A stretch of DNA of 23,240 nucleotides from a virus: IMG/VR virus record IMGVR_UViG_3300030333_007227, positions 1 through 23,240 of that record, one strand, 5' to 3'. The notes below the pieces were generated by a model that worked only from the letters and a program-made list of their open reading frames with translations, did not search any database and was not told the origin of the DNA. Positions 3,752 through 21,476 of the stretch are shown here, piece by piece. The stretch's first letter is position 1; the number at the start of each line of letters is the position of its first letter. The translations under genes and the position numbers were made by a program.

Positions 3752-4479
3752 CAGTACAATTCCTTATAAGCGTGAACAAGAGAGAAATTTGTTTCTCTAA
3801 AATTTGGTGTCTTCCAAACCTCTGTTAGGTTAGTATTAATAGAATAATCTTTTCCAAGCATATAATAACATATTTGCATGTAAAGATCCAACCAACCAAA
3901 TCTAAAATCAAGATGTTTTAAAATAAAGTCAAATTCAAAATCCATGAAGTCATATATCTTGTGATAATTATCTAAGAAAGTATTGATATTATAAACACTC
4001 CCACCACCTGCACCATACCAATCCACATTTGGTTTGGCACCATACTTAGCTACAAGAAACTGAAGAAGTTCAGGTGCAATCTTATTACCAGGAACATCAA
4101 ACCCTGCAATCTCCCATTCAGATGGAATGACTACTGGATGTTGTGTAAGAACATCATCCTCCATCATAATCATATGTGATCCACCAGCAGATTTTACAAA
4201 CCTTGCTGCTTCACGTACCATATGAATCCAATGTAATGATTCATCCTTAGTAAATCCATATACTCCAGATTCATGTCCAGTATTTCTCCTACCTATGTGC
4301 ATATAAGAATGAATATAATTACAATTATATTTCTCTGCTACATCACTATAATCAGCACCACCATCACCACATAAGGTATAAGGTGCATCAGGATGAAATT
4401 TTCTAAACTCTTGTAGAATAAACTCTGTTGCCTTTTTGTTCTCATAAACAGTATGAAAACATCCAAATTTTGCTGTCAT
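3751..4479 (-). CDS. Probable GT-A type glycosyltransferase
   Basis: A 242-aa protein I do not recognise as a named family. It opens with a short strand and 'TLCGDGGADYSDVAEKYNC' (35-53), as at the start of a nucleotide-binding GT-A domain. It carries 'MIMMEDDV' at 103-110, an acidic cluster like the metal-binding motif of GT-A enzymes. A glycine-rich 'YGAGGGSVYN' lies at about 154-163, followed by aromatic-rich helices. No membrane segment is visible. It is joined by TAATG to the upstream transferase and by TGATG to the downstream one, which fits a step in the same glycan. A glycosyltransferase role is inferred from these motifs and from context. Confidence 0.62.
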   Translation of the reverse strand: MTAKFGCFHTVYENKKATEFILQEFRKFHPDAPYTLCGDGGADYSDVAEKYNCNYIHSYMHIGRRNTGHESGVYGFTKDESLHWIHMVREAARFVKSAGGSHMIMMEDDVLTQHPVVIPSEWEIAGFDVPGNKIAPELLQFLVAKYGAKPNVDWYGAGGGSVYNINTFLDNYHKIYDFMDFEFDFILKHLDFRFGWLDLYMQICYYMLGKDYSINTNLTEVWKTPNFRETNFSLVHAYKELY

Positions 4480-5240
4480 TAATCTTTAAGGTAATGTGGG
4501 TGAATATCGTCACGATATAACCAGAACCAATGAGGTTCTCCTGGTGGAGTTGGTTGGACATCAGGTGTCATGTCCTTGAAATCATAACTAAATGGAGGAT
4601 TGTAAAAACTAAAAACAGATGGATCTTTCATACCTACCCATTTTTCAAAGTTCATCCTTTCAATAGGGCCAAAATCTTCCTTCTCCCTATGAAATGCATC
4701 CTTTGTAGGATGTTGAAGAGTAGAAATATAATCTGCTCTTGCCCACCAAAAATTACCACTCATATGTGGCCATGGATCTAAACAATAGTTAACTCCTGAT
4801 ACCTGATATCTATCCAACTTATCTATGTTCTCTTTCCACTTATCAATACAACCCCACTCCATGAGGTGTCTCCAACTATTAACTGCACGAACCTTCCTAT
4901 CAGAATATTGATCTCTAACACCACAATAATGACTCATACCTTTAGTATGGAAATACATTACCTTATGTGCACGTTTATTTACACAATCCTCATAAAGATG
5001 CTTTAAACAAAATCCTTCATACTCTTCATCACTATCTCTACAATCAATAATATCAATCCAATCATAAAGAGAAACAAAATGCTTAACTCTTGATGCCTGT
5101 ACCCCATTAATAGTACATTTTACCGTCGCTATTTTAGAAAGACCAGATGCATAAAGTCTTTTAATTTGATCATCCACCATGATCTTCCACAGATCACTAT
5201 CAGGTGGAGTCCATATATGATAATAAACGTTTGTCTTCAT
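4479..5240 (-). CDS. Putative glycosyltransferase with HTKG and SGNFWWA motifs
   Basis: A 253-aa protein of a family common in polysaccharide clusters and distantly like rhamnan-synthesis proteins. Motifs are 'YFHTKGMSH' at 96-104, 'SWRHLMEW' at 122-129 and 'HMSGNFWWARADY' at 159-171. In related proteins the HTKG and H-x-SGNFWW motifs line the active site. The start at 5238-5240 (ATG, two bases after the upstream TAG) is preferred to a GTG three codons earlier that would overlap the previous gene. It is very rich in Trp, Tyr and His. The stop overlaps the next gene as TAATG. The catalytic role is inferred. Confidence 0.65.
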   Translation of the reverse strand: MKTNVYYHIWTPPDSDLWKIMVDDQIKRLYASGLSKIATVKCTINGVQASRVKHFVSLYDWIDIIDCRDSDEEYEGFCLKHLYEDCVNKRAHKVMYFHTKGMSHYCGVRDQYSDRKVRAVNSWRHLMEWGCIDKWKENIDKLDRYQVSGVNYCLDPWPHMSGNFWWARADYISTLQHPTKDAFHREKEDFGPIERMNFEKWVGMKDPSVFSFYNPPFSYDFKDMTPDVQPTPPGEPHWFWLYRDDIHPHYLKD

Positions 5241-5242
5241 AA

Positions 5243-5974
5243 CTACCACTCGTTATTGTTTAATTTAGAATTGTCTTTAGCAAGATGCATCATCTTATTA
5301 GGAAACTCACAATACTGTGCAAACATCTCAGGATAAGAATAGTCGGGAGGAAGAGTAAATGTTTCATTACGATGAGTTAGAAACCATTTATTCATATAAC
5401 TCTCCTCATAGAATCTTGCTTGAATATCTTTAGATACATCTTCCTTTGTCCATTTATCAATTTGATTCATCATATCAAAAATATAAGGAACTTTACCACC
5501 CCATAAGCACCCTTGATGATAAACACTCATATCCATAATATCATCATCAATACAGGCATTTGATAATGGGTTTGTATCGTATGCTCCTGGAGATTTATTA
5601 TGTGGACCAAATCCAACATAATGGCATGGATGATGTACTCCAAAATATTTCTTAGAATCATCAAAGAAATCATCATATTTAATTTCTTCTTGAACATAAA
5701 GATCAGCATCTACTGATACCAACCAATCATAATCAGAAATCTTATCCTCCAGTTTTAACATCTCCTCAAATGTTTTATTATAAGTATCAGGAAATCCATA
5801 ATGAGGTATCTCCATGAGAGTTAAATTATCTGGTGTACCTTCCAATTCCCCATCAGTAAAAACAAAATAATGTTTCTCTACATTAGGTAGAAAATATTTC
5901 TCTAATCTTTCATACCATTCAGGAAGAAAATTAACATAAGATTCTGTACCCCAAAATGTAATTGCTATTTTCAT
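5243..5974 (-). CDS. Glycosyltransferase family 6 (ABO blood-group type alpha-1,3-Gal/GalNAc transferase-like)
   Basis: A 243-aa GT6 enzyme. Family members transfer Gal or GalNAc in alpha-1,3 linkage to a beta-galactoside, as in the human A and B transferases. The order of motifs matches the family: 'YFVFTDGELEG' at 36-46, 'YDWLVSVDADLYV' at 82-94 with the metal-binding DXD (D89-A90-D91), 'SPGAYDTNPLSNACI' at 128-142, 'YHQGCLWGG' at 152-160, and 'FYEESYMNKWF' at 188-198, equivalent to the WHDESHLN region. It is a bare catalytic domain without the animal stem and membrane anchor. Known bacterial GT6 enzymes usually have NXN instead of DXD, so this one is of the metal-dependent form. The ATG at 5972-5974 overlaps the previous stop (TAATG); a TTG eight codons earlier is less likely. 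Confidence 0.88.
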   Translation of the reverse strand: MKIAITFWGTESYVNFLPEWYERLEKYFLPNVEKHYFVFTDGELEGTPDNLTLMEIPHYGFPDTYNKTFEEMLKLEDKISDYDWLVSVDADLYVQEEIKYDDFFDDSKKYFGVHHPCHYVGFGPHNKSPGAYDTNPLSNACIDDDIMDMSVYHQGCLWGGKVPYIFDMMNQIDKWTKEDVSKDIQARFYEESYMNKWFLTHRNETFTLPPDYSYPEMFAQYCEFPNKMMHLAKDNSKLNNNEW

Positions 5975-6756
5975 TACAAATAATGCTCCCTGTTCCAATT
6001 AAATATTTTTTCAGCCTTTCGTGATTTAATATTCACAAATGTTCTCTCCTTTCCATGTTGATTTAATTTAAGAACCAAGGATCCTTTACGTGATAACTTA
6101 AATATTATATCATATATTGATATATTTTGCCCACCTACCAAAAACAATTCATGTTTCTCTTCCAAATCACTATCAATTACTTTTGATATAAGATCAATAA
6201 GATCATCTATATGAATTAGGTCAACCGTTGTCTTAAGATCTGCATAAATCTCTATAATATTATCAGTATTTAATGCAACCATAAGTTTATCTACTAAACC
6301 ATTTGTTCTATTAATATCTACATCACCACCCCAAACATTAGAAGTTCTTAATATGACAGTTTTACAATCAAGTTCATTTAAAATCTCCTCAACTCTTAAC
6401 TTTGACTGTCCATACACACTTCTAGGATGAGGTTCTGACAATTCTGAAATATCATCTTCTTCAATTTTACTTTGATGCATATCCCCTGCACTTGAGATAA
6501 AAATAATCTTACCATTAGGGTTTTTATTTAAATAATACTTAAATAAATTCTCACTATTAAACACATCATATTTTCCCTTCATACCATCTTTATCACGTGG
6601 AGTGGAAGACCAACCTAAATGAATTAAACAAGATTCTTCATGAGATTTAAATACATCATAAACAATATTTCGATATGATATAGTTGTAAGATCTTTACTA
6701 TTCAATTCCCTGAATCGTCTACCTATCATTCCAGTAGCACCAGTAAGATATATCAT
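5974..6756 (-). CDS. NAD-dependent epimerase/dehydratase or reductase (extended SDR)
   Basis: A 260-aa extended SDR. The Rossmann loop G6-G9-G12 begins at the very N-terminus, 'FISSAGD' at 86-92 holds the catalytic Ser, and Y115xxxK119 ('VYGQSK') is the active-site pair. 'VDLIHIDDLIDLI' is the conserved region after the substrate pocket. It resembles RmlD/Fcl/GalE-like enzymes of nucleotide-sugar metabolism without a diagnostic feature of one reaction. It lies between the GT11 and GT6 genes, with an ATGA overlap upstream and TAATG downstream, so it may make the donor for one of them. GDP-L-fucose synthase (Fcl) activity is possible but unproven. Confidence 0.78.
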   Translation of the reverse strand: MIYLTGATGMIGRRFRELNSKDLTTISYRNIVYDVFKSHEESCLIHLGWSSTPRDKDGMKGKYDVFNSENLFKYYLNKNPNGKIIFISSAGDMHQSKIEEDDISELSEPHPRSVYGQSKLRVEEILNELDCKTVILRTSNVWGGDVDINRTNGLVDKLMVALNTDNIIEIYADLKTTVDLIHIDDLIDLISKVIDSDLEEKHELFLVGGQNISIYDIIFKLSRKGSLVLKLNQHGKERTFVNIKSRKAEKIFNWNREHYL

Positions 6757-7565
6757 TTAACAATCACCCATTCATTAGGAATTAAATCAGAAGTATCTAA
6801 ATGTGAATTATTAGGGCCAAACCATTTAGCAGGAGCACAAACCACTTTATCTACAGCTTTAGATAACCATGCACCCCACCAAGAGAAGGAACTATTAGCA
6901 ATAATAAAATCAGAACATAAACTCATCAAACAAAGATCTGTGTAACTATCATTACCCTCTGCTACAAGAAATCTATCAGAAGAAAATAATGATTGTTCCT
7001 TACACCACTCAGGATCATCAGAAAAAACAATTACATTTCTACTACTATCAAATTTATCTAAACAAGATTGATAATAATTCAAATCTAAATTATGATGATT
7101 GGCAGAATTAATTAGAAAATCCCCTCTTCTAATATGAAGAGCAATGGGAGTATCTATAGTACACATCATATGCTTACAAGGAATAGCAATTTCATTCTTG
7201 AAAATAAAATCCTCACGAATTTCTTTCTCTATATTTTTAAAATATTTTTCTGTTTGAAAATAACCATACAAAGATACGTTATCAGAACAAGTATTGAATA
7301 GAGTTTCATTAAAATTAAACCCTCCCTCAGTACGAGGATTATCATCTTTAATTATTCCTATATTAGATTGTGTAAGATTTTTCATTACAAAAGGATCAAA
7401 CAATTCAATCCTTAATTTATTTCCTATACCATCATCAAATACCTCATTATGATAAGGAATACAAAAATCAAATCCTCTGTTCTTAGCAATCCCACGTAAT
7501 GAGGCATACTGGAACATTTGATTTCCCAATTGTCCCATCTTACCAAGATAATTAAATCCTATCAT
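6753..7565 (-). CDS. GT11 family alpha-1,2-fucosyltransferase-like enzyme
   Basis: A 270-aa GT11 enzyme. Family members (bacterial FutC/WbsJ type) move L-fucose from GDP-fucose to the 2-position of galactose. All diagnostic motifs are present: 'GQLGNQMFQYA' at 11-21, 'HIRRGDF' at 144-150 (GDP-sugar binding), 'VFSDDPEWCKEQ' at 180-191 and 'NSSFSWWGAWLS' at 224-235. Length matches bacterial members (about 280-300). No membrane segment is present. The start at 7565 lies within the end of rmlB (14-base overlap) and is needed for the conserved first strand. The donor might be GDP-fucose or GDP-L-galactose, since a GDP-mannose 3,5-epimerase is encoded at 17589-18629. Confidence 0.93.
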   Translation of the reverse strand: MIGFNYLGKMGQLGNQMFQYASLRGIAKNRGFDFCIPYHNEVFDDGIGNKLRIELFDPFVMKNLTQSNIGIIKDDNPRTEGGFNFNETLFNTCSDNVSLYGYFQTEKYFKNIEKEIREDFIFKNEIAIPCKHMMCTIDTPIALHIRRGDFLINSANHHNLDLNYYQSCLDKFDSSRNVIVFSDDPEWCKEQSLFSSDRFLVAEGNDSYTDLCLMSLCSDFIIANSSFSWWGAWLSKAVDKVVCAPAKWFGPNNSHLDTSDLIPNEWVIVK

Positions 7566-8484
7566 ACTTATACCAAATAATAGTTTTTGTTAATCCTTCT
7601 TCAAGAGTATGTGAGGGACTAAAATTTAATGTGTTTTTAATTTTAGTATTATCTATAGCGTATCGCAAGTCATGACCAGGACGATCATCAACATACTCAA
7701 TAAGATCCTCACTAGCACCCATAACTTTAATGATAGTCTTTATCAAATCAATATTCCTAACTTCACATTCCCCACCAATATTATATTTCTGACCTACTCC
7801 ACCTCCATAGAAAACATCTAATATTCCTCTACAATGATCCTCAACATAAATCCAATCTCTAACATTTTCACCATTACCATAAACAGGTATCTTTTTATCC
7901 TGCAAGATATTAGTAATAGTCTTGGGAATTAATTTTTCTCTATGTTGACGTGGACCATAGTTATTAGAACAGTTAGTAATTACTGTAGGAAGACCATATG
8001 TATTATGATAAGCCATTACAAAATGATCACTAGCTGCCTTAGATGCTGAATAAGGATTCTGTGGATCATAAGGTGTAGTCTCAGTAAAAGGAGGATCATC
8101 ATACCCTAATGAACCATACACCTCATCAGTAGAAATATGATGAAATCTCTCTACCTCATACTTAACTGAAAGATTAAGTAAATTAACTGTACCTACTATA
8201 TTAGTATCTACAAAAGGATTAACATCATTAATTGAATTATCTACATGAGTTTCTGCTGCAAAATTAAATATAGTTTTCGGTTTATATCTTGCAAATAATT
8301 CAGCAAGACGATACTCATCTGCTATATCAACACCCTTTACAGGATATTTTAAATCATAAAGATTCTCCATATCTCCTGCATAAGTTAACTTATCTAAAAT
8401 AACTACATCCTCAAAACAATTTTGAGACAAGTAATGTGCAAAGTTACTTCCTATAAATCCTGCTGCACCTGTAATAAAAATCAT
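7552..8484 (-). CDS. rmlB: dTDP-glucose 4,6-dehydratase
   Basis: A 310-aa extended SDR that converts dTDP-glucose to dTDP-4-keto-6-deoxyglucose, the branch point to dTDP-rhamnose and other deoxysugars. The NAD loop is G6-G9-G12. 'AETHVDNSI' is at 77-85, and 'HISTDEVYG' at 116-124 holds the Thr-Asp-Glu catalytic residues (119-121). Y145xxxK149 lies in 'NPYSASKAASDH', followed by 'NNYGPRQ' and 'EKLIPK' at about 174-188. These are all hallmark RmlB motifs. It is slightly shorter than the usual 340-360. The partner RmlC is encoded 11 kb upstream (19473-20021); no clear RmlD is adjacent, though two SDRs in the window could serve. It has an ATGA overlap with the previous gene. Confidence 0.93.
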   Translation of the reverse strand: MIFITGAAGFIGSNFAHYLSQNCFEDVVILDKLTYAGDMENLYDLKYPVKGVDIADEYRLAELFARYKPKTIFNFAAETHVDNSINDVNPFVDTNIVGTVNLLNLSVKYEVERFHHISTDEVYGSLGYDDPPFTETTPYDPQNPYSASKAASDHFVMAYHNTYGLPTVITNCSNNYGPRQHREKLIPKTITNILQDKKIPVYGNGENVRDWIYVEDHCRGILDVFYGGGVGQKYNIGGECEVRNIDLIKTIIKVMGASEDLIEYVDDRPGHDLRYAIDNTKIKNTLNFSPSHTLEEGLTKTIIWYKYDRI

Positions 8485-9846: not shown

Positions 9847-10863
9847 CTATCTGTTTAAAGGTATCTTTCCTTTACCAATCTGATCTCTCCAATGATTCAA
9901 AAGATCTAAAAGGGTTTGTCTTACAGGAATCTCTGGTTTCCAATCAATAGTATTCCTTATCTTAGAATTATCAAACATCTGATAGTCTGCATCAATCGGT
10001 CTTAACCTATTACTATCAGTCTTAACTTCAATATCCACTTCACTAAATCCAAGAAGTATATCAACTACCTCAGTTAATTTGAATGCTTCTTCTCCAGCAA
10101 TATTAAAATACTCTCCAGGCAATACTCTTCCTTCTGCACTTGCTTCCAGTAACAAATAATATGCTCTAACAGCATCTCTACAATCTTGAAAAGTACGAGT
10201 ACAATCTAAGTTACCCACATAGACTATTGGATCCTGTAGCCTTGCTTCTATTAATGCAATCTGTTTAGCAACAGTACTCTCAAAAAATACATCACTTCTT
10301 CTAGGTCCAGTATGAGTTCCCATACGAGTCATAAAAGTCTTAATATTATATGCTTCACCATAAAACCTTCCAAGATAATCAGCTCCTATCTTGCTTATAC
10401 TATATGGACTGGCCCCATGAAGAGGTGTATCTTCCTTTAAGACCACACCAGTAGGGGCACGTCCATAAACTTCACTCGAAGAACACACATGAACAACTGG
10501 ATCATACTGAGTTACCTGTCTGATTGCTTCTAATAAATTAGCAGTCCCTATAATATTAGTCTGTAAAGTCTCTATAGGGATATTAAATGAAGTTTGAGGA
10601 TAAGATTGTGCTGCTAGATGTGAAATATAATCTGGTCTTATCTCATCTATCATTCTACTGATAGACATTGCATCATTCAAATCTGCATAATAAACAGAGA
10701 TACGATCATTCTTATTGATACGATCAGTTAAATGATATAGATTATCCAACGGTTCCTGCCACCGCATCATACCTACTATATCATAATCAGTATGTTCTAA
10801 AATATAATCAGCAAGTTGAGAACCAACCTGTCCTGTTATACCTGTTATAAGAATTGTTGTCAT
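9847..10863 (-). CDS. gmd: GDP-mannose 4,6-dehydratase-like SDR
   Basis: A 338-aa extended SDR most like Gmd, which turns GDP-mannose into GDP-4-keto-6-deoxymannose, the precursor of GDP-fucose, GDP-rhamnose and GDP-perosamine. The NAD(P) loop 'GITGQVGS' is at 8-15 and 'SHLAAQSYPQTSF' at 81-93. 'CSSSEVYG' at 127-134 holds the Ser/Glu catalytic residues (130-131) and Y154xxxK158 the base pair. 'TRTFQDCRDAVRAYYLLL' lies at about 213-230. The segment after the active site ('TRMGTHTGPRRSD') departs from classical Gmd, so another 4,6-dehydratase or epimerase activity is possible. It has an ATGA overlap with the SDR upstream and ends just before an internal promoter. Confidence 0.8.
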   Translation of the reverse strand: MTTILITGITGQVGSQLADYILEHTDYDIVGMMRWQEPLDNLYHLTDRINKNDRISVYYADLNDAMSISRMIDEIRPDYISHLAAQSYPQTSFNIPIETLQTNIIGTANLLEAIRQVTQYDPVVHVCSSSEVYGRAPTGVVLKEDTPLHGASPYSISKIGADYLGRFYGEAYNIKTFMTRMGTHTGPRRSDVFFESTVAKQIALIEARLQDPIVYVGNLDCTRTFQDCRDAVRAYYLLLEASAEGRVLPGEYFNIAGEEAFKLTEVVDILLGFSEVDIEVKTDSNRLRPIDADYQMFDNSKIRNTIDWKPEIPVRQTLLDLLNHWRDQIGKGKIPLNR

Positions 10864-11729
10864 TGAAACTCCATAGTTATAGCATCTCTCAGAGATCGTA
10901 CAGGTCTTCCCAATACTTTCTCTAAAAGAGGAGACCTCATAGCAATAATAGCAGGTCTATCTTTATAGAATTTAGCATCAGGAGTAGTAACTTTAGTTAT
11001 AAGATCTTGTACCACCAATTCACTTAGAATCTCAGCAAATTCAACCCTTGATAAAGTTTCTGGTCCTCCACAATTTATAACTCCCTCTTCACACACATCC
11101 CAGTTTTTATATAAAGAAATGATAGCATCAACTGTATCATCTCTATGAACTATGGATCTTCCAAAAGGATCAAATAGATCTGCTACTGTATCCTCACTTG
11201 CACAAGTCCTAAGATACGTGGTAAATCTATCATCCTTAAAGAAATTATAAGAAAGTCTTAATACTTTAAATCTCAAGTTACCAATAAATCTTTTCTCCAC
11301 AATTGCTTTCATTTCAGCATAGACCCCTAAAGGATTTGAGGGTTGTGATTCATCAAACTCATCCTCACACCTTCCATATACTGCATCACTAGAAAGAAAA
11401 ATAACTTTACAACCACGATCAAGTGCTTGTTGAATAAACTCTCCAGTAGACTCTACATTCACTTTTACAGCAACATCAAATTGTTCAGCACATACAGAAG
11501 GTGCTGATATAGCAGCAGTAAATACTACAGTATCTCCCTCCTTTAAAGTATCAAAATTATAAGAATGAAGATCATCTGCCAAGTTTAAAGCATAATAACC
11601 ACTATCAACAGTAAACAGATTAGATCTTGCAGGAGAAACTACCTTTCTAATATTATATTTGCCTTCAGTCTTCTCAACTAATCGACTGCCAATATTTCCT
11701 TTTGCACCGATAATGTGGAGGGTATCCAT
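10860..11729 (-). CDS. RmlD-like nucleotide-sugar reductase/epimerase (SDR)
   Basis: A 289-aa SDR of the RmlD-substrate-binding type. The Rossmann loop is G8-G11-G14. 'FLSSDAVYG' at 111-119 contains the catalytic Ser/Asp positions, and Y137xxxK141 ('VYAEMK') is the active-site pair. The C-terminal part ends in a short helix typical of RmlD-like proteins. It may reduce the 4-keto group of a deoxy sugar, either the Gmd or the RmlB product; I cannot tell which. Its first 52 bases overlap, in another frame, the end of the upstream nucleotidyltransferase gene. The start is nevertheless needed because the Rossmann strand begins at residue 3. Confidence 0.78.
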   Translation of the reverse strand: MDTLHIIGAKGNIGSRLVEKTEGKYNIRKVVSPARSNLFTVDSGYYALNLADDLHSYNFDTLKEGDTVVFTAAISAPSVCAEQFDVAVKVNVESTGEFIQQALDRGCKVIFLSSDAVYGRCEDEFDESQPSNPLGVYAEMKAIVEKRFIGNLRFKVLRLSYNFFKDDRFTTYLRTCASEDTVADLFDPFGRSIVHRDDTVDAIISLYKNWDVCEEGVINCGGPETLSRVEFAEILSELVVQDLITKVTTPDAKFYKDRPAIIAMRSPLLEKVLGRPVRSLRDAITMEFQ

Positions 11730-12367
11730 GTTTTAAATCTCTCTAGTCTTTCGGGTGTACCAATATCAAATCGTTCTGTATCCAGAACCTTATAGGATAT
11801 TTCCATACCAGTAAGTATATCATACTCCATACTCAACGGCAATCTCATTGGTATATTTAAATCCTTTTTATAAAATTTATAAATACCAAGACTTACCAAT
11901 TCTCTACCAGAAGCTTCAGAATTCTTCTCTACAAATTCTTCTACCTTTCCATCTTTCCCCTTAATATATCCCACATCATGTGTTACATCCTCTTCTGCAA
12001 CAAATAATGTAGAAGTATCGCAATCTAAATTCAATTCACCAGAAAAAAAAGTATCCCCATTCATTACATAGAATGAATCTGGTAGATCCATCTTACATAA
12101 AAATCCTGCAGTACCAGAAAGTTCTCCTTCATTAAATACATCCAATCCATAATCTTTATACTGCCTAAAATATTCATAATTAAGATTAGAACATACTAAT
12201 GTAATATCAAATCCCTTAAGATTTGCAAGAACATAATTTATAAATGGTTTATGATTTACATCAACTAATGGTTTAGGTTTTCCATTAGTAATAGAAGAAA
12301 GTCTTCTTCCTTTACCACCGACTAAGAGATATAACTTAGTCCCCTCGTATAATTCGGTAACTATCAT
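11678..12367 (-). CDS. hddC: Sugar-1-phosphate nucleotidyltransferase, HddC-like guanylyltransferase
   Basis: About 229 aa. The pyrophosphorylase signature 'LVGGKGRRLSSITNGKPKPL' lies at 15-34 (G-rich loop plus KPKP), and D105 in 'VMNGDTFF' is the metal-binding Asp. 'RFDIGTPERLERF' near the end is typical of HddC/ManC-type enzymes. Next to an HddA-like kinase, it most likely makes GDP-D-glycero-alpha-D-manno-heptose, though GDP-mannose or another NDP-sugar is possible. I chose the ATG at 12365-12367, 11 residues before the core. A TTG nine codons earlier would extend the overlap with the cupin gene. The last 52 bases also encode the start of the next SDR; the tail after 'ERFKTW' is longer than the fold needs. 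Confidence 0.8.
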   Translation of the reverse strand: MIVTELYEGTKLYLLVGGKGRRLSSITNGKPKPLVDVNHKPFINYVLANLKGFDITLVCSNLNYEYFRQYKDYGLDVFNEGELSGTAGFLCKMDLPDSFYVMNGDTFFSGELNLDCDTSTLFVAEEDVTHDVGYIKGKDGKVEEFVEKNSEASGRELVSLGIYKFYKKDLNIPMRLPLSMEYDILTGMEISYKVLDTERFDIGTPERLERFKTWIPSTLSVQKEILAVD

Positions 12368-12686
12368 CTTCAAAATGTTGTGTAGAAAATTCAAATAACT
12401 CAGTATCTTTTATACCAGTCATCTGATGTCTTAATCCTGGAGGAACATAAAATTTATCTCCTGGTTTAAGAGTAATGGTTTCTGATTTTTCATAATCATC
12501 ACTATTCCCATATCTTAATAAAATTTCTCCACTTTGTACATAGAATGTTTCATCCTTTATCTTATGATAATGCCATGAACATTCTTTACCTTCCTTAAAA
12601 AATAAAATTTTACCACAATACTTATCAGTATTTACAATCCACTTCTCATATCCCCATCCTTTAGGATGTATTTCTACTGTCTCCAT
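12336..12686 (-). CDS. Cupin protein of the heptose/mannose type
   Basis: A 116-aa single-domain cupin. Metal ligands are visible as H39 and H41 ('SWHYHK'), E46 and H87 ('GLRHQM'), with 'LKPGDKFYVPPG' at 73-84 as the second cupin motif. It resembles stand-alone cupins that accompany HddA/HddC kinase-transferase pairs and mannose-6-phosphate isomerase domains, so an isomerase or epimerase role on a sugar phosphate is likely. It overlaps the kinase gene by 13 bases and the nucleotidyltransferase by about 32. The fold call is strong; the reaction is an inference from neighbours. Confidence 0.82.
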   Translation of the reverse strand: METVEIHPKGWGYEKWIVNTDKYCGKILFFKEGKECSWHYHKIKDETFYVQSGEILLRYGNSDDYEKSETITLKPGDKFYVPPGLRHQMTGIKDTELFEFSTQHFEDDSYRIIRGD

Positions 12687-13720
12687 ACATCCACTCCATG
12701 TTTAACGAACTTAAAAGGAACCACTCTTCCCATTTCTCTATCTTTTAATGCCGTAATAAGTTGATGTCTCTTTTCAAATTCAGTAAAGAGAACCATATGT
12801 CCACCACCACCTGCTCCAGATATCTTAGCAGCAGTTGCTCCGTGTCGCAACGCATAATCATAGGTATCTATAAGTTCAGGAGAAGCAACCTTTTCATTAG
12901 TCTCTAACTTCATCTTCCAATATGTATTCATTAATGCAGATATCTTTTCAAAGTCTCCTGTCAATAAAGCATTCTTATATTCTATACATGCTTGCTTAAT
13001 ATTATGAGTTGCTTCAATAACTTTTTCATTACTCACTAAATTCTTAGCAGTATTCTCAATTACTCTATCATCTTTTCTAGGTTTACCAACATAATAGAGT
13101 ACAGTATTTAACTCCATCATATTCTGTGTCTTATAATTCATTCTTAATGGATTAACAATCGCTCTACCATCCTGTAGAAACTCCATAAAATTAAATCCAC
13201 CAAATGCAGCAGCAAACTGATCTTGTTTCCCTCCAGGAAGATCACAGATCTCTCTTTCTATCTCAATTGCGTCCTCTGCAATATCATATTCACCTCTCGG
13301 AAGACCATAATACTCAGTAATAGCAGCAACTAAAGCTACTACTAATGCACTTGAACTACCCAATCCACTACCAGGAGGTGCTTCAACATAGGTAGTAATC
13401 TTGACAGGTTCTCTCTTTAATTTGTAAGTAAGATATTGATAGGTATTAATAAGAAGTTTTAATGGGCCCTCAGAGTATGCATAGTCCATAAAGTCTGAAC
13501 TATAAAAATCTCTCTTTTCATTCATTCCTAAATCAATACTATTAAAAACCCAATGCGTCTCACGCTTACAACAATTATATGGTTCTATCTTACAGTAAGC
13601 ATACTGATCTATCGTTCCATTAAGAACTACACCACCATACTTTTTCCAATATGGTTCAAGATCTGTTCCTCCCCCTGCTAATGCCATCCGAAGAGGTGCT
13701 TTTGCGAATACTGTCTTCAT
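12674..13720 (-). CDS. hddA: D-glycero-alpha-D-manno-heptose-7-phosphate kinase-like GHMP kinase
   Basis: A 348-aa GHMP kinase of the HddA type, which phosphorylates C1 of heptose-7-phosphate (or a fucose/mannose-like sugar) with ATP. Counting from two codons upstream, 'APLRMALAGGGTDLEPYW' is at 10-27, the ATP loop 'PPGSGLGSSSALVVALV' at 117-133, 'LPGGKQDQFAAAFGGFNFME' at about 163-182, and 'KISGAGGGGHMVLF' in the C-terminal lobe. Length matches the family. The ATG at 13718-13720, two bases after the upstream TGA, is preferred to a TTG at 13726. With the HddC-like gene downstream it suggests a GDP-heptose route, but the isomerase GmhA is not in the window. Confidence 0.88.
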   Translation of the reverse strand: MKTVFAKAPLRMALAGGGTDLEPYWKKYGGVVLNGTIDQYAYCKIEPYNCCKRETHWVFNSIDLGMNEKRDFYSSDFMDYAYSEGPLKLLINTYQYLTYKLKREPVKITTYVEAPPGSGLGSSSALVVALVAAITEYYGLPRGEYDIAEDAIEIEREICDLPGGKQDQFAAAFGGFNFMEFLQDGRAIVNPLRMNYKTQNMMELNTVLYYVGKPRKDDRVIENTAKNLVSNEKVIEATHNIKQACIEYKNALLTGDFEKISALMNTYWKMKLETNEKVASPELIDTYDYALRHGATAAKISGAGGGGHMVLFTEFEKRHQLITALKDREMGRVVPFKFVKHGVDVWRQ

Positions 13721-13722
13721 AA

Positions 13723-14472
13723 TCAATAATGAACTTGATAATCTCCACCAACCTTGTTGATGTTGTTATTATTTAAATGATGTTTAAGAATTAATTCATT
13801 ACACCAATATCCATCCACATCATTAGACTGCCTTACCAATTGACCTAAACAATTAAACAATCCACAATAAACATTCATGGCATTAGTAGAGCCCATAGCA
13901 TACCAATCACCAATCATACCATCAGGATGATCTGGATTATGCTGATAATAAACAGCAGTATCATCCTCAGGAGGTTCAGAAAATTTAATCTGAACATGAG
14001 GGCCATAATCCATACGGTTACGAATCACCCAATCATAATGAGTGTTACTCTCCGTAGCATACCTTTCTTTCATTATGTTTGACATCATAATACTATACCA
14101 CATACAATTAGTAGTATTGTCAAGATACCCTTTAGCCTTTTCTACTGGATTATCACCAGGTATTTCAAGAGCCCAAGTATGTGCTTTTTCAAAAGTCTTT
14201 TGAGGATATTCAAAGTGCCTATTCCAAGTCTTAGGTTTCTCTACCAACATTGCTTTAGGTTGATAAAGTTGAGATATTTTTTCTAATGCATGAGGATCTA
14301 ACCGATGACCCTCTCTACCAGGAATAACAGATTCAGTACTTAAATTATCGGGATCAAACCAAGTATGAACAAACACATCCACATCATTATGATCTAAAAG
14401 TGCTGCTTTTAATTTCTGATACCCAACCTCAATTACTCTAGGTTGCCCTGATAAACATAATGCTACTTTCAT
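13723..14472 (-). CDS. Polysaccharide-cluster protein with an N-terminal 'LCLSGQPR' motif, probable glycosyltransferase
   Basis: A 249-aa protein of a family often found in LPS and capsule loci, with no enzyme name I can defend. It begins with a hydrophobic strand and 'ALCLSGQPR' at 4-12, followed by 'VDVFVHTWFD' at 31-40. An 'YDWVIRNRMDYGP' segment at 146-158 looks like a metal/donor-binding region (R-x-R-x-D), and a C-terminal 'WCNELILKHHL' lies at about 223-233. No membrane segment is present. It has an unusually good Shine-Dalgarno site for this region (GGAGG at 14477-14481, four bases before ATG) and a 12-base gap upstream rather than an overlap, so it may be translated independently. 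Confidence 0.6.
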   Translation of the reverse strand: MKVALCLSGQPRVIEVGYQKLKAALLDHNDVDVFVHTWFDPDNLSTESVIPGREGHRLDPHALEKISQLYQPKAMLVEKPKTWNRHFEYPQKTFEKAHTWALEIPGDNPVEKAKGYLDNTTNCMWYSIMMSNIMKERYATESNTHYDWVIRNRMDYGPHVQIKFSEPPEDDTAVYYQHNPDHPDGMIGDWYAMGSTNAMNVYCGLFNCLGQLVRQSNDVDGYWCNELILKHHLNNNNINKVGGDYQVHY

Positions 14473-14484
14473 AAATCCTCCACA

Positions 14485-14766
14485 CTATACTTCATAAAAA
14501 GTATATTTTAAAAATAACTCTTCACCCTTATGAATAGGTCTAAGTGTCTTGATAAAATACTTATCATCTTCACACCATTTAACACAGTTTGGATCATCAC
14601 TATGATTTATAAAACCACCTAAAGGAGTTCTATAGATAACCTCATCTACAATTAAATGAGACATCCCCAAAACCAAACCAACAGGTATATCTTCCTTTGC
14701 AAAAATCCCTTGACCCGCAATAGGACTATCTTTAACATGCAATCTACTAGGTAATGCCTGATACAT
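14485..14766 (-). CDS. Minimal SET-domain protein (putative lysine methyltransferase)
   Basis: A 93-aa protein that consists of little more than a SET domain, the fold that transfers methyl from S-adenosylmethionine to lysine. It shows 'SPIAGQGIFAKEDIPVG' at 14-30 (the G-x-G start motif), the near-invariant 'INHSDDPNC' at 53-61 (N54-H55-S56, SAM binding), and 'IHKGEELFLKYTF' at 78-90 with Y88 at the catalytic tyrosine position. The pre-SET and post-SET parts are missing and the insert between halves is very short. The start overlaps the GDPD-like gene as TAATG. The target could be a virion or host protein; nothing in the sequence says which. Fold recognition is good, activity uncertain. Confidence 0.82.
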   Translation of the reverse strand: MYQALPSRLHVKDSPIAGQGIFAKEDIPVGLVLGMSHLIVDEVIYRTPLGGFINHSDDPNCVKWCEDDKYFIKTLRPIHKGEELFLKYTFYEV

Positions 14767-17588: not shown

Positions 17589-18629
17589 TCACTTTTCTAT
17601 CTCTAATGATATCCAATCATAAGTTCTACGAATACCTTCCTCAAGAGGTAACGAATAATCCCATCCAAGTTTTTCACGAATCAAATCATTATTAGAATTA
17701 CGTCCTCTTACTCCTAAAGGACCATCAATATGTTTCTTGGAGATATTTTTACCAGCAACCTTAGCAGTAATATCTACCAACTGATTTATACTAACCATTT
17801 CTTCAGAACCAATATTAACTGGTCCTAAGAAATCAGATTGCATCATTCTATAAGTTGCTTCAACACATTCATCTATAAAGAGGAAGGATCTGGTTTGTTC
17901 TCCGTCCCCCCATACCTCAATTGTATCGGTATCTCCCGCATACGCAACCTTTCTGCATATTGCTGCTGGAGCTTTCTCTCTACCACCTTCCCAGGTTCCT
18001 TCTGGTCCGAAAATATTATGGTAACGGGCAATCCTAACAGGAATACCATGGTTACGATTGTAAGCCAAGTACAGTCTCTCTGAAAAAAGTTTCTCCCATC
18101 CATATTCGGAATCTGGTGCAGCTGGGTATGCGGAATCTTCACGGCAATCAGGGTTATCTGGGTCTAGTTGGTTATGCTCTGGGTACATACATGCTGATCC
18201 AGAATAGAATATCTTTGTCTTATTCTGACTAGTAAAGTCATTCATTCTACGCTGCTGTTCTAATACATTCAAATTAATTTGAACTGAATTATGCAGTATC
18301 TCAGCATCATTCTCACCAGTAAATACAAATCCTGCACCACCCATGTCAGCAGCAAACTGATAGATGTAATCAAAATTTTCTATGTATCTACTAGGAACTT
18401 CATTATAAAAATTACCTCGTACTCCTTTAAATCCTAAACATTTAGCAACAAATCTTTCATCACGAAGATCTCCATATATAAATTCATGTGCTTCTGTATC
18501 AGAAAACTCAGGTGATTTAAGATCCACACCACGTACCCAATAACCTTCTTTACGAAGTCTCTTGACCATGTGACTGCCGATAAAACCACCTGCACCTAAT
18601 ACAAGTGCAGTTCCTTTATAATCGTTCAT
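17589..18629 (-). CDS. gme: GDP-mannose 3,5-epimerase
   Basis: A 346-aa extended SDR that closely matches plant-type GME, which converts GDP-D-mannose to GDP-L-galactose (and GDP-L-gulose). The NAD loop is G12-G15-G18. 'FAADMGGAGF' at 92-101 and 'SGSACMYP' at 143-150, with C147 as the presumed acid/base Cys, are diagnostic. Y176xxxK180 ('YGWEK') is the redox pair, and 'RYHNIFGPEGTWEGGREKAP' at 202-221 includes the second acid/base K219. 'WGDGEQTRSFLFIDECVEA' follows. The middle of the gene (about 17870-18190) is visibly richer in G+C than its neighbours. It has its own promoter (18654-18682) and no overlap with the next gene. In this cluster it would feed L-galactose or a derivative to the transferases. 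Confidence 0.93.
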   Translation of the reverse strand: MNDYKGTALVLGAGGFIGSHMVKRLRKEGYWVRGVDLKSPEFSDTEAHEFIYGDLRDERFVAKCLGFKGVRGNFYNEVPSRYIENFDYIYQFAADMGGAGFVFTGENDAEILHNSVQINLNVLEQQRRMNDFTSQNKTKIFYSGSACMYPEHNQLDPDNPDCREDSAYPAAPDSEYGWEKLFSERLYLAYNRNHGIPVRIARYHNIFGPEGTWEGGREKAPAAICRKVAYAGDTDTIEVWGDGEQTRSFLFIDECVEATYRMMQSDFLGPVNIGSEEMVSINQLVDITAKVAGKNISKKHIDGPLGVRGRNSNNDLIREKLGWDYSLPLEEGIRRTYDWISLEIEK

Positions 18630-20864: not shown

Positions 20865-21476
20865 TCACTGCCATGGTGGCCCTAAAGACCATAAAACTAA
20901 ACTGTATCTTGTACCACTTGTTATAGGAGTAACTCTATGTGGAATAAAACTAGGAAATACAGTAAGAGATCCTTTAGGTCTTATCTCATCACAAGTTTTA
21001 ATTCTATCTTTACCACTAACAGAACCAAAATCAAATTCCAAATTACCCCCTTCATATTCATTACCATCCACAAGATTAACAGTCATACTTATCTTTCTAA
21101 CTGTTCCCATAGAAGTTGATACATTACCTGATTCATAATCATATAAGTAACCTCCAGTATATGTAGCATTAAAATCGGAGCCACCATCAACATGCCAATC
21201 ATAAAACTGATCTATTCCATATTTGGTAAACTGTATTTTTTCACCACCAGTAATTTTCCAAAACCAACCCGATTGAGCATTAGCTTCCTTAACAGCAGGA
21301 ATTATTAAATCATAAATTGATTTATCTGTCAACCAAGCAATCTCACTATTTCTAACACCTTGCTTTTTATTAGTATATGCTTTAACCAATTTCTCCTCAC
21401 CAATAGAAATTATCTCATCACATATATGTGATGAGATAAAGGAAGGAAAATGCACATAAGGAACTTTTAAGAACAT
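20865..21476 (-). CDS. 2-oxoglutarate/Fe(II)-dependent hydroxylase (PKHD/prolyl-4-hydroxylase type)
   Basis: A 203-aa dioxygenase typical of T4-like cyanophages. The double-stranded beta-helix shows the iron ligands H95-x-D97 ('FYDWHVDGG') and H180 ('FIPHRVTP'), with R190 ('[10 protein letters not shown]') for 2-oxoglutarate. '[20 protein letters not shown]' at 127-146 is the usual core. An insert at about 100-125, rich in Tyr, Gly and Ser, separates the HxD motif from the core. The target is unknown; protein or nucleotide hydroxylation is usual in phages. Codons 13-22 lie in a perfect 30-bp palindrome. The preceding 49-aa ORF ends directly before this ATG. Confidence 0.93.
21410..21439. repeat. 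Perfect 30-bp palindrome inside the hydroxylase gene
   Basis: Fifteen bases (21410-21424, TTATCTCATCACATA) are followed without spacer by their exact reverse complement (21425-21439). The flanking bases do not pair. On the minus strand it codes for '[11 protein letters not shown]' of the hydroxylase, 38 bases after the start codon. The mRNA would fold into a long A/U-rich hairpin, and the DNA could form a cruciform or bind a dimeric protein. Confidence 0.9.

Follow-up and report, generated by a model that had tools for sequence, protein, structure and literature searches.

In cyanophages, the genes of a GT11 glycosyltransferase (alpha-1,2-fucosyltransferase family) and a GT6 glycosyltransferase (ABO-type fold) are found together in a pairing that is no coincidence. 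The window in which this pair was analysed is an entire IMG/VR virus record of 23,240 bases, most closely related to the myoviruses of Synechococcus and Prochlorococcus. As a whole, the best explanation would be that the two enzymes act successively on one acceptor, with altered donors, so as to form an ABO-shaped trisaccharide, a reading for and against which we would give equal weight. Held with somewhat less than that conviction is the broader proposal that cyanophages possess a modular blood-group-shaped glycan, in which the GT11-GT6 core would be kept and the donor cassettes swapped (GDP-fucose or GDP-L-galactose; a common sugar or an SDR-made, possibly deoxy, sugar), the window making an L-galactose analogue of the H/A/B structures. 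The enzymes that distinguish the first two cassettes are GMD and GFS, which form the route to GDP-L-fucose, and GME, which makes GDP-L-galactose.

The two enzymes and their gene cluster

Nearly all the genes of the window are held by the minus strand in one densely packed run, and around GT6 and GT11 there is a sugar cluster of about 30 genes, many other glycosyltransferases included. The GT6 gene (5243-5974, minus strand) encodes a protein of 243 aa that matches PF03414 with 54.5 bits, above the curated Pfam cut-off of 25 (E 1e-14), and the NCBIfam model Gltr_6 with E 6e-37, yet under the 250-bit cut-off of that model. Its sequence matches in the PDB are the human ABO transferases (E 3e-17), and its AlphaFold model (pLDDT 94.4) has BoGT6a as the top Foldseek match (4ayj, E 2e-21, TM 0.85), adopting the GT-A fold of the ABO transferases and BoGT6a. 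The residues by which the family is recognized are all present: the metal motif, here DAD (DxD, or NxN, in the family), the H-P-C motif, a catalytic-type Glu at the column of GTB E303 and BoGT6a E192, and the C-terminal Lys. Among the cyanophage rows of the GT6 alignment, DAD, E191 and K233 are invariant, E191 and K233 also across bacteria, and, in GTB numbering, H233-P234 is retained by the phage enzymes together with DxD, the C-terminal Lys and the catalytic Glu.

The GT11 gene (6753-7565, minus strand) matches PF01531 with 105.4 bits (cut-off 23.9; E 4.5e-30), and the motifs H-x-R-R-G-D (HIRRGDF) and SSFSWWGAWL are present in its alignment. A sequence search of the PDB gave no matches for this protein; its AlphaFold model (pLDDT 95.5) is matched in Foldseek by POFUT1, FUT8, NodZ and AtFUT1, with E values of ~1e-6 to 1e-4. 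Plant FUT1 (GT37), which accepts GDP-L-galactose, is related to it in fold (5kor, E 8e-5), although it belongs to another CAZy family and uses another acceptor. Both open reading frames lie where the initial annotation had seen the motifs of these families, and the profile scores place both proteins inside them.

Between the two genes there is a single SDR-family gene (5974-6756, minus strand; PF01370, 56 bits; GxxGxxG and YxxxK), with ATGA at the GT11/SDR junction and TAATG at the SDR/GT6 junction, and the start of GT11 is in turn overlapped by the gene of a dTDP-glucose 4,6-dehydratase, RmlB (7552-8484, minus strand; TIGR01181, 413.8 bits, exceeding the cut-off of 365). The overlaps RmlB/GT11, GT11/SDR and SDR/GT6 are consistent with translational coupling, which agrees with the linkage through one SDR gene that had been described at the outset. 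Immediately downstream of GT6 is a gene (4479-5249, minus strand) without Pfam family, which is kept 3′ of GT6 in loci L002-L007. The sugar cluster also contains a 2OG-Fe(II) oxygenase (20865-21476; PF13640), of which S-SCSM1 has one adjoining GDP-sugar genes, and a small SET-domain-like protein (14485-14766; INHSDDPNC), spotted by eye only.

Families such as these lead in the first place to the reading of authentic blood-group synthesis, in which GT11 would use the GDP-L-fucose of the host to make H, and GT6 would use UDP-Gal or UDP-GalNAc to make B or A. The closest solved relatives of the phage GT6, the ABO transferases and BoGT6a, use fucosylated acceptors and have the same H-P motif, where alpha3GT has A-W-W; GFS is common among cyanobacterial genomes; and there is a precedent in E. 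coli O86, in which H and B structures are assembled by a GT11, WbwK, and a GT6, WbnI (blood group B), that is, by members of the same pair of families within a single polysaccharide pathway (PMC4202792). However, the O86 system is bacterial and fucose-based, whereas the window belongs to a phage and has a GME-type module, DAD, an extra SDR and altered donor contacts. Since GME-type modules exclude GFS, and since the donor pocket of GT6 carries the changes R188T, D302E and H301Y, authentic synthesis seems rather unlikely, and the product of this phage would be an analogue and not the human antigen.

Pairing of GT11 and GT6 in viruses and bacteria

In a tblastn search for GT6, 71 phage records were matched, nearly all of them cyanophages, and the viral contigs held at least 535 GT6-encoding stretches, on the best 80 of which linkage was counted; these loci are the best-scoring ones and not a random sample, and neither the contigs nor the trees are independent samples. 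GT11 was found no more than 3 kb from GT6 in 77 of these best 80 viral loci (of at least 535), always on the same strand and with GT11 first, and in 43 of the same 80 GT11 and GT6 are immediate neighbours or overlap. As for the exceptions, L035 ends at the end of its contig; L103 (4047-5714), in which GT4 and GT6 are fused, stands where the fetched stretch ends, on a 17.7 kb contig without GT11; and L044 shares its contig with L008, on which a second GT6, farther along, overlaps a GT11, so that L008/L044 was rejected as a break of the pairing rule. By eye, the GT4 half of L103 is like the window gene at 1840-2781.

The pair is present in all 12 isolate or single-cell phage loci, and P-SSM2 and AG-345-F15 have it with a very distant GT6. 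In P-SSM2 (PSSM2_268, PSSM2_265) the same GT6 and GT11 families stand 1.5 kb apart in the same order, but its GT6 has only 27% identity, its donor module is of the GFS type and R188 is retained.

Of 80 bacterial loci, 52 have GT11 no farther than 3 kb from GT6 (35 of them directly adjacent), in both gene orders, and 26 of the 80 have no GT11 in the fetched DNA. In a planctomycete (MAG KLAP7; L134, 6001-7632) GT6 (residues 1-245) and GT11 (245-530) form a single protein of 543 aa. Akkermansia and relatives (L128, L160, L165) have a GT11 fused into a longer protein beside a GT6 protein of ~787 aa, and the GT11 fusion of L128 includes a methyltransferase domain. GT6 was found in just two of 390 cyanobacterial genomes, one of them without nearby GT11, and the usual hosts were therefore rejected as source of the gene. 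A divergent GT6 (L191, 8314-9000) stands beside a secA-like gene in a cyanobacterial genome of 2.3 Mb, without nearby GT11.

Taken together, the viral, phage and bacterial counts and the one fusion protein make a sequential action, with GT11 (H-like) followed by GT6 (A/B-like), well supported by context. If instead the linkage were that of an inherited glycan cluster, whose enzymes work on different residues of the same polysaccharide, one would expect both to sit, as they do, in a large cluster of sugar genes with many other glycosyltransferases, and to find GT6 without GT11 in part of the bacterial loci. Nevertheless, order and overlap are fixed across diverse phages, the bacteria show both orders and a fusion of the two enzymes, and the characterised ABO transferases and BoGT6a act on the alpha-1,2-fucosylated product, all of which makes action on different residues decidedly unlikely. 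Of the A/B- or H-like trisaccharide suggested in the initial annotation, the coupling of the genes and, by context, the successive action of their products have been upheld; an authentic H or A/B product has not, for reasons that lie in the donors of the two enzymes.

The GDP-sugar donor of GT11

The genes just ahead of GT11 in the phage operons are often those of a donor module, and where the module is local in this way the order is either GMD-GFS-GT11-GT6 or GME-GT11-GT6. Among 74 contigs the donor module was GME in 38 and GFS in 28, with both in none and neither in 8, a mutual exclusivity (Fisher p 1.5e-13, uncorrected for relatedness) that is repeated in the eight contigs of at least 80 kb (GME 4, GFS 4, both 0). 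As to the isolates with GT6, Bellamy, S-CAM9, S-PRM1, S-8S53 and SynMITS9220M01 have GME, and DSL-LC02, DSL-LC03, ACG-2014f and P-SSM2, among the matches listed, have GFS; S-SCSM1, where both modules are present, has GT11 and, among the matches listed, no GT6.

On a common set of 50 loci, the GT11 tree requires 4 changes of donor label and the GT6 tree 9, against ~16 with shuffled labels, as would be expected were GT11 the enzyme that consumes the GDP-sugar. When each locus was left out in turn, the GT11 sequence gave the correct module in 47 of 50, the rule being broken by L029, L040 and L013; the window GT11 was classed as GME type (log-odds 167), in agreement with its placement in the GME-linked clade of the tree. 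Position 148 of GT11 (HxRR[G/T]D) also tracks the donor module (G in 27 of 30, T in 18 of 20), although it is not put forward as a general rule.

The GME of the window (17589-18629, minus strand; PDB 2c59 AtGME, E 5e-88) is identical in alignment to AtGME at the catalytic residues S143, C145, Y174, K178, K217 and R306, according to the list in PMC8787198. It is found 10 kb from GT11, not adjoining it, in the same gene run. In the wider group around the window, GME is present in 20 of 27 contigs, and two have a true GFS without GME. Neither GMD nor GFS, the GDP-L-fucose module, rose over the cut-off in the window, itself a fragment, and its SDRs match DdmhA, RmlB, GME and others. The donor module is therefore GME and not GMD/GFS, and given that the modules are mutually exclusive, the evidence speaks against an authentic H product.

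In the sampled cyanobacterial genomes GME is rare (7 of 291) and GFS is common (263 of 291 at E 1e-60, many with ~40% identity), so that the phage would be supplying something that most hosts appear to lack, although GDP-Fuc may be on hand anyway, host GFS being common. Most likely, then, the donor of the window GT11 is GDP-L-galactose from the phage's own GME; L-Gal transfer by a plant alpha-1,2-FucT offers a precedent (Ohashi 2019, as cited in PMC8787198).

On the minus strand, between 9847 and 13726, the window also has a homologue of GDP-D-glycero-D-manno-heptose 4,6-dehydratase, DdmhA (9847-10863; PDB 7us5, E 4e-166), an HddC-like sugar-1-phosphate guanylyltransferase (11678-12394; NF049965, E 1e-16, under cut-off) and an HddA-like heptose-7-phosphate kinase (12674-13726; NF049969, E 9e-87, under cut-off), which would form a phage route toward GDP-6-deoxyheptose resembling Campylobacter capsule synthesis. 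That GT11 uses this or some other GDP-sugar, GME feeding another transferase, is very improbable, because, although these genes are nearer to GT11 than GME is, no consistent association of heptose genes with GT11 is seen, GME stands directly before GT11 in many relatives, and the characterised alpha-1,2-fucosyltransferases use GDP-L-galacto donors.

The donor pocket of GT6 and the inserted SDR gene

BoGT6a, an A-type GT6 of Bacteroides ovatus, is the closest in fold to the window GT6, with the catalytic Glu aligned, but it is metal-independent, with NAN in place of the DAD of the phages, and its R73, which contacts O3′ and O4′ of the donor (PMC3961637), corresponds to a T in the clade of the window. 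With human GTA/GTB, the best sequence matches, the common features are DxD, H233-P234 and E303, against an identity of ~25%, Q/C at positions 266/268, and the changes R188T, W300F, H301Y and D302E. The window GT6 has Thr at the column of GTB R188 and BoGT6a R73, and its clade is characterized by R188T and D302E and by an H301 that is nearly always Y or F; the donor pocket of the ABO type, with conserved R188 and D302 (GTB numbering), is thus absent from the window and its clade. As for the choice between A and B, the positions that carry L/M266 and G/A268 in humans are occupied by Q and C in all phage GT6 save the P-SSM2-like ones, both main phage types included, for which reason the ABO rules cannot predict the donor and a prediction of A or B from these positions had to be rejected as impossible.

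Every one of the 27 labelled loci in which an SDR separates GT11 from GT6 has T188, and every one of the 48 without such an SDR has R188. The T188 loci form a single clade (support 100), within which the type of SDR varies, and with this single origin of R188T, its match with the SDR counts as one event. The loss of R188 in exact step with the insertion suggests a non-standard donor for GT6, probably not plain UDP-Gal or UDP-GalNAc, but rather a modified sugar to whose synthesis the intervening SDR gene would contribute; we can reasonably infer that this donor would lack hydroxyls of the kind bound by R188 or H301, and we propose that the SDR at 5974-6756 makes or finishes it. In one group of this clade, L047 (2550-4666) and L050 (2300-5004), an SDR and, beside GT6, an RfbH/E1-like 3-dehydratase (PDB 3bcx, E 5e-67) are inserted between GT11 and GT6, which suggests a 3,6-dideoxy sugar for GT6. 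A donor pocket altered in this way, and tied to the inserted SDR, also argues against an authentic A/B product.

Proposed pathway and its meaning

In the pathway that we favor, a terminal galactose would first be capped by GT11, through alpha-1,2 linkage of an L-galacto sugar, and would then itself receive an alpha-1,3 sugar from GT6, the product being an ABO-shaped branched trisaccharide on a surface glycan directed by the phage, whether of the host (LPS or capsule) or of the virion. The data on which this is built are the families, the folds, the linkage, the fusion, the exclusivity of the donor cassettes and the residue changes; the linkages, the acceptor, the exact donors, the order of action and the place of the glycan are inferred.

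To call this a striking viral mimic of blood-group synthesis, as was first done, overstates the case: E. coli O86 is a precedent, the GT6 genes of two cyanophages had been noted by 2014 (PMC3961637), and no finding links the glycan with vertebrates. Likewise, the GT11 and GME of S-SCSM1 were noted in 2022 (PMC9602691), and the annotation of P-SSM2 already bears the GT6 and GT11 family names. The pairing rule, the exclusivity of GME and GFS and the change in the GT6 pocket were not found in the literature searched, from which subscription papers were mostly absent, and a search of papers for phage GT11 by family name gave none.

What looked like a chance pair of annotations becomes a rule across many cyanophage lineages, and with it come the predictions of two GT11 subtypes that differ in their use of GDP-L-Gal and GDP-Fuc, and of a GT6 subtype whose donor is another one, variants that would offer new enzymes for the synthesis of rare-sugar glycans. 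If this is true, the role of GME in these phages would be to provide for surface glycans that bear L-galactose, which may serve to exclude rival phages or to decorate the virion.
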